From: an uncultured Lachnospiraceae bacterium
GTDB taxonomy: Bacteria > Bacillota > Clostridia > Lachnospirales > Lachnospiraceae
NCBI GenBank assembly: GCA_946630825.1
Contig: CAMOZG010000002.1
Coordinates: forward strand, 1 to 36,929
Reading direction: 5' to 3'
DNA length: 36,929 bases
Both the position numbers and the translations under genes were made by a program. Of this stretch, positions 20,532 through 32,501 are shown one piece after another. Each line of letters starts with the position of its first letter. Position 1 is the first letter of the stretch. The notes beneath the pieces were generated by a model. The model was not told the DNA's origin. It did not search any database and saw only the letters and a list, made by a program, of their open reading frames with translations.

Positions 20532-21278
20532 TCATTCTGTGATAAATCTTTCAAATCCCCTGTCATTGATCTCTTCAATAAGGGCAGCATCACCGTTTTC
20601 CACAATACGGCCATCCACTAATACATGGGTGGCATCCACCTTAAGAGCCTCAAGGATCCTGGTGCTGTGGGTTATGATAAGAAGCGCTCCGCCCACGGAC
20701 TTTTTGTACTCCCTGATGCCTTCGGAAACAGTACGCACTGCATCCACATCCAGTCCTGAATCCGTCTCGTCTAAAATGGCAAGCTTGGGCTTAAGCATCA
20801 AAAGCTGGAGGATCTCCGCCTTTTTCTTCTCACCACCTGAAAAACCCACATTAAGATCTCGCTCTGCATATGAAGGATCCATGTCCAAGATCTCCATGGT
20901 AGCTTCCAATTTTTTCTTAAAATCCCAGACCCTGATATGCTCCCCGGTCCGCTGTTCCAAGCTTGTCCTTATGAAGTTTGAAAGGGTGATACCCGGCACC
21001 TCTATGGGATTCTGGAAGGATAAAAACATCCCCATATTGGCTCTCTTGTCAGTGGAAAGTCCGGTGATATCCTCTCCTTCAAAAAATATGCTGCCTCCTG
21101 TGATCTCATATCTGGGATCTCCCATAATGGTATTGCCCAGGGTGGATTTCCCGGCACCGTTGGGTCCCATGATCACATGCACTTCCCCGGCGTTAAGTTC
21201 CAAGTCGATCCCGTGAAGGATCTCTCTTTCCTCTATGCCGGAGCTTAGGTTTTTGATCTCTAACAATATATCTGACAT
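20532..21278 (-). CDS. sufC: Fe-S assembly ATPase SufC
   Basis: ABC ATPase: GPNGAGKSTLGNTIMG, VGFSGGEKKKAEILQLLML, AILDETDSGLD; start MSDILLEI preceded by AGGAGATCAGATT. Confidence 0.96.
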   Translation of the reverse strand: MSDILLEIKNLSSGIEEREILHGIDLELNAGEVHVIMGPNGAGKSTLGNTIMGDPRYEITGGSIFFEGEDITGLSTDKRANMGMFLSFQNPIEVPGITLSNFIRTSLEQRTGEHIRVWDFKKKLEATMEILDMDPSYAERDLNVGFSGGEKKKAEILQLLMLKPKLAILDETDSGLDVDAVRTVSEGIREYKKSVGGALLIITHSTRILEALKVDATHVLVDGRIVENGDAALIEEINDRGFERFITE

Positions 21279-21368: not shown

Positions 21369-21374
21369 ATTATA
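21369..21374 (-). promoter_or_regulatory. Putative -10 box of the suf operon promoter (poor -35)
   Basis: Minus strand TTATAATC with TATAAT about 90 nt upstream of sufC; the -35 position reads TTTTAT. Confidence 0.4.
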
Positions 21375-21419
21375 ACACACTTTTCTATTTTATAAAACAT
21401 ATAACATTATTCTTTTTGT

Positions 21420-21448
21420 TTGACATGAAATAACTAAAATGTTATATT
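21420..21448 (+). promoter_or_regulatory. Near-consensus plus-strand promoter with no downstream ORF
   Basis: TTGACA (21420-21425) - 17 nt - TATATT (21443-21448). Confidence 0.65.
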
Positions 21449-21469
21449 GTTAGTCAGAACTAACGTTAG
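21449..21469. promoter_or_regulatory. Palindromic operator-like element overlapping the predicted +1
   Basis: GTTAGT-CAGA-ACTAAC (21449-21464) overlapped by the perfect palindrome CTAACGTTAG (21460-21469). Confidence 0.6.
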
Positions 21470-21484
21470 GCAAAGCAGTGTAGC

Positions 21485-24400
21485 CTATGCTATCACATCT
21501 ATTTCAGGTACCGTTGCCTCAAGCACATCCAAAAGTATGCGGACAGTGTCCAATGAGGTAAAGGTGGTCACACCGTTTTGGACAGCACACCTTCTTATGG
21601 CTGCCCCGTCCTCATAGTGTACTCCCGACAATATGGCACGGGTATTTATCACGTAGCTTACATACCCTGCCCTGATGGATTCCAGTATCTCTTCGCTTCC
21701 GTCACTCATCCTGCCCCGGATCCGGGTGCGGATATTGTTTTCCTTTAAAAAGGTTCCCGTGCCCATGGTTGCCTCTATATTAAATCCCAGATCGTAAAAT
21801 CTTCTGATGAGAGGCAGAGCCTCATCCTTGTCTTCATCCGCCAGTGTCACCACCACAGTTCCGTAGTCCTTCATTTTAATACCTGATGCCTGAAGTGCCT
21901 TATAAAGGGCAATATTAAGGGATCTGTCATAGCCTATTGCCTCTCCTGTGGACTTCATCTCAGGGGACAGATAGGTGTCCATCCCGGTCAGCTTCTCAAA
22001 GGAAAAAGCTGGGGTCTTTACATACCATTTCTGCACCCGGCTCTCATCCCTTGCCTGACTGCTGTAGGACGTGCCCTCTTTAAGAAGCGAAAGCCCCATG
22101 TCGCAAAGCTTTTCCCCCAGCATGACCTTGGTTGCAATATCCACCAGGCTCTTTCCGCTGGACTTTGACAAAAAGGGTACGCTTCGTGATGCCCTGGGAT
22201 TTACCTCTATCACATACACATCATCATTTTTATCCACTATGAACTGGATGTTGTAAAGTCCGCAGATCCCAATGGTAAGCCCCAGGCGTCTGGTGTATTC
22301 CGCTATGGTATCCTGCACCTTTTTGGATATTGAAAAGGGAGGGTATACACTGCTGGAATCCCCGGAATGCACACCGGTGCGCTCCACCAGCTCCATGATC
22401 CCCGGAAGGAAAACATCCACTCCGTCACAGATGGCATCCACCTCTACTTCCTTGCCCTTAAGGTATTTGTCGATAAGCACCGGCCTCTCGCTGTCCATAT
22501 CCACGGCATTTCCCAGATAGTGCCTTAACATTTCTTCATTTGCCACTATCTCCATGGCACGTCCACCCAGTACGAAGCTGGGTCTCACAAGGACGGGATA
22601 GCCGATCTTTTCTGCAGTCTTTACTCCTTCTTCTATGTCTGTAACTGCATGCCCCTTGGGGTTGGGGATCCCTGCCTCATGGAGCACCGCATCAAAGGAG
22701 TCCCTGTCCTCTGCCCTTTCTATTGCCTTAAAGTCCGTTCCGATAATATGGACTCCCCGCTTTGTCAGGCTCTCCGCCAGATTGACCGCAGTCTGTCCTC
22801 CCAGGGTGGCTATGACTCCCATGGGCTTTTCCAGATGGACTATATTCATCACATCCTCTGTCGTCAGAGGCTCAAAGTACAGCTTGTCCGCCGTGGTATA
22901 GTCCGTGGATACCGTCTCAGGATTGTTGTTTATAACTATTGCCTCATAGCCCATTTCGTGAATGGTTTTTACCGCGTGTACCGTGGAATAGTCAAACTCC
23001 ACTCCCTGACCTATCCTGATGGGACCGGAGCCTAAAACTATCACCTTCTTTTTGTCGGTTATGAGGGATTCGTTTTCCTCCTCATAGGTGGAGTAAAAAT
23101 AGGGTACATAGCTTTCAAACTCTCCTGCACAGGTGTCGATCATCTTGTATATGGGATGAAGTCCCAACTCACACCTCAACTCATACACCCGGTCCTCATG
23201 CCATTTCCAAAGCTCCGCCACATAGGCATCCGAAAATCCCATACGCTTTGCCCTGGATAAAAGCTCCACATCTCCGGGGGCATCCTCCAACTCTCTTTCC
23301 AGATCCACGATCTTTTTGATCTTTTCCAAAAAGAACATATCTATCCCGGTGATATCGCAGATCTGTGTGTAGTCCCCCCCAAGCCACAAAAGCTGGGATA
23401 TGGCGTAGATCCGATCGTCCGTCCCCTCCTTTATGTAGTCCAAAAGCTCATCCACACTCATATGCTCCTTGTCGAACTTTTCCATATGAATATGGTTTTT
23501 CCCGTCCTCCAATGACCTGATGGCTTTAAGCAGGCTCTCCTCAAAGGTCCGCCCCACGCTCATGACCTCCCCGGTAGCCTTCATCTGGGTGGAAAGGGTG
23601 TTCATGGCGGCAGGGAATTTATCAAAGGGGAACCTGGGCATTTTGGTTACCACATAATCCAAGGAGGGCTCAAAGCAGGCTGGTGTATTTTTAAGTTCTA
23701 TCTCATGGAGATCCATACCCACGGCGATCTTTGCCGAGACCCGGGCTATGGGATAGCCGCTGGCTTTCGAAGCCAAAGCCGAGGATCTGGAAACTCTGGG
23801 ATTTACCTCTATGACATAGTATTTAAAGGAAAGGGGATCTAAGGCAAACTGCACATTACAGCCGCCCTTTACATCCAAGGCACGGATGATCTTAAGGGCT
23901 CCGGTGCGGAGCATCTGATACTCCTTGTTGGTCAGAGTCTGGCTGGGAGCCACCACAATGGAATCCCCTGTATGGATCCCCACCGGATCCAGATTTTCCA
24001 TATTGCAGACTGTAATGGCGGTATCATTTGCATCCCTTATGACCTCATACTCGATCTCCTTAAAGCCCTTTATGCTCTTTTCGATAAGAACCTGATGCAC
24101 CGGGGACAAAGCCAGGGCGTTTTTCATCATTTCAGAAAGCTCCTGACTGTCGGAGGCAAAGCCACCTCCCGTACCTCCCAAGGTAAATGCGGGACGAAGT
24201 ATCACAGGATAGCCTATCTCCTCTGCTATGCGCTGGGCATCCTCATCACTGTAGGCGATTCCTGAGGGCACCACCGGCTCTCCTATCCTCTCGCAGAGCT
24301 CCTTAAAAAGCTCCCTGTCCTCTGCACACTCAATGGATGCAGCATCTGTTCCCAAAAGCTCTATCTCACACTCTGCCAATATACCCTTTTTATAAAGCTG

Positions 24401-24700
24401 CATTGCCAGATTAAGTCCTGTCTGACCGCCTATCCCCGGAACTATGGCATCCGGTCTTTCATAGCGGCAGATCCTTGCCATATACTCTAAGGTGAGGGGC
24501 TCCATATATACCTTGTCAGCCACCATGGTATCCGTCATGATGGTGGCGGGATTTGAATTGGCAAGGATCACCTCATATCCCTCTTCCTTCAAAGCCAGGC
24601 ATGCCTGGGTACCGGCATAATCAAACTCTGCTGCCTGACCTATGACTATGGGACCGGATCCTATCACCAGTATCTTTTTTAAATCTTTTCTCTTAGGCAT
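21485..24700 (-). CDS. carB: Carbamoyl-phosphate synthase large subunit
   Basis: [34 protein letters not shown]; duplicated ATP-grasp halves; C-terminal MGS domain. The ORF upstream of this ATG overlaps carA in another frame. Confidence 0.97.
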
Positions 24701-28610: not shown

Positions 28611-30509
28611 CTACTCCCCGCTATAGATCAGGCTCTCATCATATACCGATTTGATCCTGTCATATACTCTTTCGTAATTTTTCCTGCGTCCGTTGGACAA
28701 AAGATAGGACAGATCCGCTAAAAACTCCCCGTCCTTAAAAAGCTCCGTCAGATACGGGGCATATCGTGTGCCCGCTCCCTCGTTAAGCTCCCTGGCAAAT
28801 TCAAACATGGTCTTGCCCCGGCTGTATGATCGACCCACAGTATCTGTGGCAGCATCCAGGCAATCGGCACAGGTCACAATATCTATCAACACCCTCTCCG
28901 GTACGGAGGTGTTGTCAAAATCCTCAGGGTAGCCCTTTGTGCCGTCATACCATCTGTGATGTCCCCTTGCCACATTGGCATAGAGGGCTGTGGACTTGTA
29001 GTCCTTCATGATGTCCGCTCCCACCCCGGGATGCTTTTTAATGAGATCAAATTCACTGTCCAAAAGCCTGCGGCCATAGACCATGATGGTATCGGTAATG
29101 AGTATCTTTCCGAAGTCATGACATCTGGCAGCGTGGAAAGCATAGCTTAATACCTCATCCCTGTCATCAGTACCCAAAAGCTTAAAGATATTATTAAAAA
29201 GTTCCGGCTTAAGTCTCATGAGATGTCTGGTAATACATCTGGTAAGCTGTGCCACCATGGTGCTGTGAACATAGGTAGGGGGATGAAGTGCAGCAATACA
29301 GCTTAAGCAAAAATCCTCAAAGGTCATTACACCCGGGATCTCAATAAAATTGCTCATAAGCATGGACAAAAATTCCAGCATAAAGCTCATGGAATCCCTG
29401 CCGGACATATTAAAGGCATAGCTTAGGGCATTGGAATAAAACTTTGCCAGAGTATGCTTTTCGTACTCCGTCACATGGTCTGGATCCAAGGTCAGGATAT
29501 ACTCCGTAGGAAGCATGAGATTCATTGTCATCCCGTAAAGACCGTAATCCGAAGGATCCCTCATGTCATAGAGGGCTCGCATGTTTTTGTGATAGGTGTC
29601 AATATCCATTCGCCCGCTTTCAAACCTGGCGCGGAGCCGGTGAAGTTTCAGCTCATTTTCCTCCATAAGCTGGCTGTAAAACTCAGGCTCGTCATGCCAG
29701 AGCCGGTCCATCTCATCCACCCTGTCTGCCACCTTGGAAACCACCTCAGGGGGCATACCCCTCCTGTTGTGGTAGTCCAAAAGCATGGAAATATAGTTAA
29801 GGGACCTGAACTTATGATTTCGCCAGTTGTAGTCGGGAAGTCTTTTGACATACTCGGGATCGTCCGCCAAAGAAAGTGCCTTGACCAGCATTTCGTAATT
29901 GCGTCTTGATTCATCCTCTGAAAGCCTCTGACCCTCATAAAGGGACCACATATATCTGGAGTTTATAAGCACAAGCTCCCTGCTTTCGTCATCAGGCAAG
30001 GCGGCAAAGGCCTCAGGATCCAAAAGATCCACTATCTGGGCTGCTGCGTTAAAGCCCCTTTTCCTGTAGGCATCTGCGATCTCCGGGAAAGAAATAAGCC
30101 GCTGGGTAATATTCATCATGGTATAGCATGACACTATCTCCCTGTCTATGCCCAAGACCACCTCTCCTGCATCCTCATCATCCCTGGCGGTGTCCAAAAG
30201 CTTTCTGGAAAGCATATCATGTATGGCAGGATCCAGATTATCCAGATTGTAGGCATCCAAAAGCTCATCACAAAACTCCCCCAGGTCATTAAGCTGTTCC
30301 TGGGAAATATGTACCCCATCCTCTAAATAGGGAAAAAGCTCCTCCTGTAGGATCTGTCGGTTTTCATTTGCCAGTTTGCCAATGGAAATGAAATTATGAC
30401 GAAGCCTCATGCTGTAATCTGCAGCATTTTTCATATTAACGACCTCGGGTGTGGAAAGTTCCCGGATCTTAGCCGTATTTTCTACATATTTTTTCAATCT
30501 GTCATTCAT
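28611..30509 (-). CDS. HD-GYP-like domain protein (predicted phosphohydrolase) with helical N-terminal region
   Basis: HPPTYVHS...RCHDFGKILITDTI...KKHPGVGADIM...GHHRWYDGTKGYP...VTCADCLDAATD. Confidence 0.82.
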   Translation of the reverse strand: MNDRLKKYVENTAKIRELSTPEVVNMKNAADYSMRLRHNFISIGKLANENRQILQEELFPYLEDGVHISQEQLNDLGEFCDELLDAYNLDNLDPAIHDMLSRKLLDTARDDEDAGEVVLGIDREIVSCYTMMNITQRLISFPEIADAYRKRGFNAAAQIVDLLDPEAFAALPDDESRELVLINSRYMWSLYEGQRLSEDESRRNYEMLVKALSLADDPEYVKRLPDYNWRNHKFRSLNYISMLLDYHNRRGMPPEVVSKVADRVDEMDRLWHDEPEFYSQLMEENELKLHRLRARFESGRMDIDTYHKNMRALYDMRDPSDYGLYGMTMNLMLPTEYILTLDPDHVTEYEKHTLAKFYSNALSYAFNMSGRDSMSFMLEFLSMLMSNFIEIPGVMTFEDFCLSCIAALHPPTYVHSTMVAQLTRCITRHLMRLKPELFNNIFKLLGTDDRDEVLSYAFHAARCHDFGKILITDTIMVYGRRLLDSEFDLIKKHPGVGADIMKDYKSTALYANVARGHHRWYDGTKGYPEDFDNTSVPERVLIDIVTCADCLDAATDTVGRSYSRGKTMFEFARELNEGAGTRYAPYLTELFKDGEFLADLSYLLSNGRRKNYERVYDRIKSVYDESLIYSGE

Positions 30510-30544: not shown

Positions 30545-30556
30545 ACAGATTTGACC
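30539..30556. promoter_or_regulatory. Inverted repeat GGTCAAA-CAGA-TTTGACC containing both -35 boxes
   Basis: Perfect 7-bp arms, 4-nt spacer, centred between the divergent promoters. Confidence 0.7.
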
Positions 30557-30599: not shown

Positions 30600-32501
30600 A
30601 TGGCAGCTCAAAGTGTATTAAAAACAGAATTGGATGCTTTTGTCCAGAGGACCCTTCTCATCAGAAAGCTTTCATCACCGGACATAAATCTTGCAGAGAC
30701 CGCTGATGAATACAGTGCTTTGCTTAAAGAGAATTTCAGTGATATAGGTGAGTTGGCTACCAAAAACCGGGATATGCTAAAAAAGTATGTGTACCCCATT
30801 ATCGAGTCTGATGAGCTTTTGGATGATGCTGTGGTCTCGGATCTGACGGAGTTTCTCCACTTTCTTTTAAACCCCTGGCCCGAAGAGGAACTGGATCTTA
30901 CCCTGCTTTATGTGATCTCCTCACGTCTTTTGGATGACGCCGTAAAAAAAGCTGACGACGAGCTTATCATAGAGCATGCCAGCAATCACATCTACGCCTG
31001 CTATAACAATATGGACCGGGTCAACCGCATCAGGATCTCAAAGGAGCTTCCGGAAAAATATCTGCGGGACGGGCTTAGAGCCTGGGGACTCATGGAAAAA
31101 TATCTTGACCATGACAAATACCTTACCTTAAGTGTGGATGCCAGATCCACCCTGCTGTCCCAGTCCAGATTCTATGCTGCTTTATATGATACCTATTACA
31201 CCACTGATGAAGCCACCAATGATCTGCGGATCAATGCACTGGTCACATCCATTGACTACGCTGATGATGCTTTTTACGTGGACAATACTCCCGGCTTTGA
31301 CTGGCAAAAACACGTCATCCGGTGTATGGAGCATATGGGACAGCTTACCGAAAACGGCAATCAGTGGCATCTTACCCCTCTTCAGTGTAACGAGGTGGCT
31401 GAGTATGTAGATCGGCTTAAGGAGCTTTGGAACAGTGATCCCGAGACCTGCGACAAGCTTTTGCCTGTTGTACATCTGGATCTTATCGTTTTGAGAAACT
31501 CCTACTACTCCGGCAGGATAGATCTGTCAGAGTACAGAGAGAGACTTCTTCTCATGTACGAGAAGTACTCCAATAAAAAATACGATATGTACTCCGTCAT
31601 TGCCAATATTTTCATTCCCACCGAATACATGGCTACGATCAATGCCGACACCATAAACGAGGACGCCTATGACACCCTGCGGTGGCTGTACCGGCAGATC
31701 TCCGAGTACATTCTCCACAGCAAAAATTCCGAGTCGTTTTCATTTTTGCTGGAGTATCTCTCCTCATTTTTAGAGCGGTTTGTTGCCATTCCCGGAGAGA
31801 TAAATTTTGAAAAAATGGGACTTAACTGCATGGCAGCACTCCACCCTCCCACCTACGTACACAGCCTTCAGGTGGCAGGGATATCACGTTGTCTCTGCGA
31901 GCATCTTTTGATGGAAGATCCTGACGCCTTTGTAGGGGTAATGGGATATAAGGATGTAGATGAGGTCATCAGTCATAAGAGCGATATCCTCTTTCGTGTG
32001 TATCACGCAGCCATGTGCCATGATTTCGGCAAGATCTGTATGACCGATACAATTTTCATCTACTGGCGCAATATTTCTGATGAGGACTATGAGATAATCA
32101 TGGAGCATCCCCAAAATGCCGTCCACCATTTGGACCGTTACCGCGCACTTGCCAAGTATCACGACATAGTGGTGGGACACCACTGCTGGTATGACGGATC
32201 CCGTGGATATCCCAAGGGCTTTGATATTGTAAACTCCCCCGACAGGCTGCTTATATCCATAGTGACATTGGCAGACTGCATTGATGCTGCCACCGACAGC
32301 ATTGGCAGATCCTATAAGGATAATTCTGTCACTGTCAAAAACCTTATGCAGGAATTTCGTGATGGTGCCGGCAGCCGCTACTGCCCCGAGGTGGTAGCCC
32401 TCTTTGACAAAAAAGAAGTGCAGAATGATATAGATTTTCTTTTGCACCAGGGCCGTGAAGATAATTACAAAAATGCCTATATGCTTTTAAGTAAGATATA
32501 G
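30600..32501 (+). CDS. HD-GYP-like domain protein, paralog of 28611..30509
   Basis: HPPTYVHSLQVAG...YHAAMCHDFGKICMTDTI...MEHPQNAVHHL...GHHCWYDGSRGYP...VTLADCIDAATDSIGRSY; good SD. Confidence 0.84.
   Translation: MAAQSVLKTELDAFVQRTLLIRKLSSPDINLAETADEYSALLKENFSDIGELATKNRDMLKKYVYPIIESDELLDDAVVSDLTEFLHFLLNPWPEEELDLTLLYVISSRLLDDAVKKADDELIIEHASNHIYACYNNMDRVNRIRISKELPEKYLRDGLRAWGLMEKYLDHDKYLTLSVDARSTLLSQSRFYAALYDTYYTTDEATNDLRINALVTSIDYADDAFYVDNTPGFDWQKHVIRCMEHMGQLTENGNQWHLTPLQCNEVAEYVDRLKELWNSDPETCDKLLPVVHLDLIVLRNSYYSGRIDLSEYRERLLLMYEKYSNKKYDMYSVIANIFIPTEYMATINADTINEDAYDTLRWLYRQISEYILHSKNSESFSFLLEYLSSFLERFVAIPGEINFEKMGLNCMAALHPPTYVHSLQVAGISRCLCEHLLMEDPDAFVGVMGYKDVDEVISHKSDILFRVYHAAMCHDFGKICMTDTIFIYWRNISDEDYEIIMEHPQNAVHHLDRYRALAKYHDIVVGHHCWYDGSRGYPKGFDIVNSPDRLLISIVTLADCIDAATDSIGRSYKDNSVTVKNLMQEFRDGAGSRYCPEVVALFDKKEVQNDIDFLLHQGREDNYKNAYMLLSKI

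Follow-up and report, generated by a model that had tools for sequence, protein, structure and literature searches.

A DtxR-type operator and promoter facing the 3' end of carB in an uncultured Lachnospiraceae genome, probably stranded by rearrangement

The window, by which we mean the whole stretch of 36,929 nucleotides analyzed here (contig CAMOZG010000002.1 of the uncultured Lachnospiraceae assembly GCA_946630825.1), includes a short intergenic region between sufC and carB. The first of these is gene 1 of the suf operon (20532-21278, minus strand). The second encodes the large subunit of carbamoyl-phosphate synthase; it is intact, also lies on the minus strand (21485-24700, with its start inferred at about 24700), and its stop codon occupies 21485-21487. 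A suf promoter, TTTATA-16-TATAAT with a TGn extension, is predicted at 21369-21396 on the minus strand. Divergent from it, on the plus strand and therefore antisense to carB, the sequence reads as a promoter with 11 of 12 consensus matches (21420-21448): a TTGACA -35 element at 21420-21425, a 17-nt spacer, and an extended -10 element, TGT-TATATT, at 21440-21448, of which TATATT itself covers 21443-21448.

Abutting this -10 element is a perfect palindrome of the iron-repressor type, GTTAG-N6-CTAAC (GTTAGTCAGAACTAAC, 21449-21464), which covers the predicted +1 at about 21455 and is the sole match in the window to GTTAGTNNNNACTAAC at zero to two mismatches. An extra GTTAG half-site follows at 21465-21469, creating CTAACGTTAG at 21460-21469, and resembles the opening half of a second operator fused to the first. 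The remaining gap before the carB stop codon, 21470-21484, is where we place a putative rearrangement junction.

A first-pass annotation of this DNA had ranked the promoter among the best in the window, placed a palindromic operator over its start, and noted that transcription would enter carB antisense with no plus-strand ORF to read. All of this holds. Only two promoter-like sites in the window reach at least 11 of 12 matches, and of these only the one beside carB has TGn. When the window was resampled ten times under a first-order Markov model, such sites averaged 0.3 per resample, and none had TG. (The other site, at 30551, lies between two divergent HD-domain genes, 28611-30509 on the minus strand and 30600-32501 on the plus strand, whose openings are alike.) No plus-strand gene follows the promoter for about 9 kb. 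The first ATG ORF past the predicted +1 begins at 21487, has 24 codons and lacks a Shine-Dalgarno sequence, and no credible plus-strand ORF was found downstream; small plus-strand ORFs were accordingly rejected as the target, the best ATG candidate being this one of 24 aa with no ribosome site.

The half-sites had been described as DtxR-like, with a genome scan for the motif at metal-transport genes proposed as a check. Counts from pattern searches of the genomes bear this out. GTTAGN6CTAAC has three perfect matches in the genome, versus none for the reversed control, although once a single mismatch is allowed the control outnumbers the forward pattern (19 versus 5). Both of the other perfect sites lie upstream of feoA-feoB on another contig (C29). 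Between feoA and a YitT-like gene is encoded (C29, 4630-4992) a 120-residue protein that exceeds the cut-offs for both PF01325 and PF02742, and it is the only protein of the genome above the PF01325 cut-off. Eight genomes of the genus together contain 54 copies of the motif but only 3 of the reversed control, and most of the 54 fall in short intergenic stretches ahead of genes. Its targets include feoA, ZIP transporters, ABC exporter pairs, a methyltransferase (PF04072), a DUF3793 gene followed by a flavodoxin gene, divergent pairs of rnfC and an RNase H-like gene, a pyruvate formate-lyase-like gene, and others; regulon genes with no Pfam call were named from sequence alone. In four genomes (G000, G004, G005, and G006) the repressor gene itself adjoins a motif site. 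Because the sites stand at feoAB beside a DtxR-like gene, and because of the 54-to-3 excess across the genus, the motif points to a real regulon of metal and redox genes, and assignment of the window operator to the DtxR-family type is supported. The DtxR-type regulon loci of genomes G001-G006 are L047-L084. Our literature searches found no paper linking DUF3793 with iron, and none on DtxR with feoA in Lachnospiraceae.

The geometry of the promoter also recurs in the genus. Zero spacing between the -10 element and the operator is found at the DUF3793 promoters and a ZIP promoter of the closest relative, G006, and at a methyltransferase promoter of G004, where the -35 and -10 elements score 12 of 12. 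A fused tandem operator, GTTAGN6CTAACGTTAGN6CTAAC, is present in G001, G004, and G005, upstream of DUF3793; among the genus sites examined, DUF3793 follows all three fused tandem operators, and the -10 element is TATATT. The extra GTTAG after the palindrome in the window matches the start of this fused double operator. At the DUF3793 promoter of G006, the two operators are separated, not fused.

What is out of place is carB. Orthologues with 89-92% identity occur in G006 and G007, and in both dapL comes next. In G006 it begins 10 bp after carB, within a gltBD-glnA-regulator-carA-carB-dapL cluster, and the carB gene of the window ends at the same final codon, with the operator, rather than dapL, following it. 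In the studied genome, dapL is on another contig, beside a cysK-like gene, and carAB is flanked by the suf block on one side and an unrelated block on the other, three blocks that G006 has on three contigs. Since the closest relatives have dapL after carB, the carB-suf neighborhood is, as far as these sequences go, private to the studied genome. The junction falls within about 20 bp, with the end of carB and the operator both undamaged. A search for mobile-element repeats flanking carAB returned one 8-bp inverted match, compatible with chance. The comparison of the sufC-carB interval among relatives that the first-pass annotation had suggested thus did reveal altered synteny, carB being followed elsewhere by dapL, but not the original gene: no intermediate genome with that gene in place was found among the relatives examined. 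Separately, in G000 a 183-aa ORF on contig C132 (L123:3627-4178, minus strand) has the start of CarA and the end of CarB and sits between glnA- and asnB-like genes; it is an apparent internal-deletion remnant of a second carAB.

We propose, with a probability of roughly 60%, that the site is a true promoter of the local DtxR regulon, repressed by iron, and that it was stranded by a rearrangement that removed its gene. A metal-loaded repressor would occupy GTTAG-N6-CTAAC over the transcription start and shut out RNA polymerase; a shortage of iron would then let plus-strand transcription begin. A lineage-specific rearrangement would then have set the carAB pair, originally part of a gltBD-glnA-carAB-dapL cluster as in the nearest relative, just downstream of the operator, deleting the original target. 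What remains would be a stranded control region, probably with no selected function.

That the region might be the leftover control sequence of a lost gene was already among the options given for this locus, with feoA as the example. The option fits best; the example does not, as feoAB is present on contig C29 with two operators of its own. The DUF3793-flavodoxin operon would be a better candidate for the lost gene; its promoters elsewhere in the genus share the fused tandem start. DUF3793 was not found in the studied assembly, which is weak evidence because the draft is 81% complete and in 195 contigs, and the identification is weakened because the closest relative has separated operators at DUF3793. 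A search of the window for remnants of eight regulon proteins found none, the ABC matches landing on sufC. An undamaged promoter and operator would, moreover, be unexpected in an old relic, and this counts against a leftover.

The same intactness favors a different possibility, namely that the promoter drives a working antisense RNA: under iron limitation, transcription would run into the 3' end of carB and lower its expression. In other Lachnospiraceae, a conserved noncoding RNA or leader can stand behind the tandem operator, so the family does have iron boxes with no start codon next to them. TATATT joined to the start of the fused operator was searched for as a pattern and turned up in nine places: four DUF3793-flavodoxin promoters, one in an Acholeplasmatales draft genome, and four Lachnospiraceae sites downstream of map (L110:2902-3036, QOUV01000007.1; L111:1-131, minus strand, ONIH01000023.1; L113:1629-1763, minus strand, ONBW01000012.1; and L114:1692-1824, JAQYAY010000023.1). 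In three of these last four genomes, mfd comes after the operator, the L111 locus ending first. After the map-linked operator come 42 invariant nucleotides, AGTTGCCTCCACTACATACTTTTCATACATACTTTTCCAGTT, and then a hairpin that differs in sequence among members but, through compensatory changes, stays paired in most of them; three of the four elements fold clearly better than shuffles. An Rfam search of the element gave no match, and its covariance model, run over 299 genomes of the family, gave one weak match lacking the conserved core, which we take as chance. The element may be an iron-regulated sRNA or a leader of mfd, and its CCUCC could pair with Shine-Dalgarno sequences.

The window site bears no resemblance to this element, and the covariance model has no match in the studied genome, so an sRNA of the same kind was rejected. 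Nor does the window offer positive evidence for the antisense RNA or sRNA that the first-pass annotation had listed among its options. Within 300 nt, the plus strand has a single weak terminator-like site; the downstream RNA folds much as shuffled sequences do (z -0.35); and there is no Rfam match above the gathering score. Over the final 60 codons of carB, comparison with G006 reveals no surplus of synonymous conservation, the fraction of identical codons among identical residues being 0.46, among the lowest of 18 segments, and the promoter-carB arrangement occurs in no relative examined. A functional antisense RNA is therefore unlikely. It is more doubtful still that a live low-iron promoter, sending antisense RNA through carB, ties iron starvation to carbamoyl-phosphate synthesis in a new, lineage-specific way that arose with the rearrangement.

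The contig might instead be misassembled, wrongly linking the carAB and suf regions while the true downstream gene sits on another contig. The draft is fragmented (195 contigs), and both G006 and G007 have carAB elsewhere. However, a false join would have to hit a gap of some 20 bp with an intact carB stop on one side and an intact operator on the other, and there is no shared repeat longer than 8 bp between the two ends. Furthermore, carAB meets a different neighbor at its other end too (25810); with foreign neighbors at both ends, misassembly needs two joins, and we regard it as improbable. The last option, also raised in the first-pass annotation, has the operator acting from upstream on the divergent suf operon and so making Fe-S cluster assembly responsive to iron status; the operator does lie 170 bp upstream of the sufC start, and DtxR control of a suf operon has been predicted in Corynebacterium diphtheriae (PMC524172), but it sits about 90 bp ahead of where suf transcription is predicted to begin, overlaps the plus-strand promoter and not the minus-strand one, and recurs in 0 of the 34 other sufC upstream regions of the family (up to 500 bp, at most one mismatch), which makes this quite unlikely.

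A promoter orphaned by rearrangement thus remains our preferred explanation. In its terms, the locus would be a clean example of a repressor-controlled promoter parted from its gene, and, should the promoter still be active, it would offer a natural way to learn whether newly arisen antisense promoters do anything. The setting is of use as well: the sites suggest that an undescribed rumen-type Lachnospiraceae genus has a DtxR-type iron regulon whose members can be defined and whose operator, GTTAG-N6-CTAAC, is simple. Of the earlier interpretation as a whole, the DtxR-type operator is supported, the lost gene is the best of the three options, and the suf site and the sRNA are the less likely ones.

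Among known systems, FsrA of Bacillus subtilis and IsrR of Staphylococcus aureus likewise pair an iron-repressor operator with a promoter that has no ORF. Both are Fur-controlled and have terminators and C-rich regions; downstream of the window promoter, by contrast, neither feature is evident. The 120-residue repressor resembles MntR in being short, and its best solved-structure matches are MntR proteins. It keeps the Glu-His pair and has Asp at the position of MntR Asp8; unlike MntR, it has Cys aligned with Glu99, which we take to be as in the primary metal site of DtxR/IdeR. The window operator is presumably not MntR-like, and the regulon, unlike that of MntR, includes feoA and other iron-linked genes. 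The 19-bp DtxR/IdeR consensus is TTAGGTTAGCCTAACCTAA, which by simple sequence arithmetic holds two overlapping TTAG-N6-CTAA units 5 bp apart. The window site has one such unit, at 21450, plus the extra half-site, instead of two interleaved units, and differs further from DtxR/IdeR iron-box promoters in having no target gene downstream. It shares with them the TTAG/CTAA half-sites, their placement over the -10/+1 region, and, in this genome, a DtxR-family gene beside the feoAB sites.
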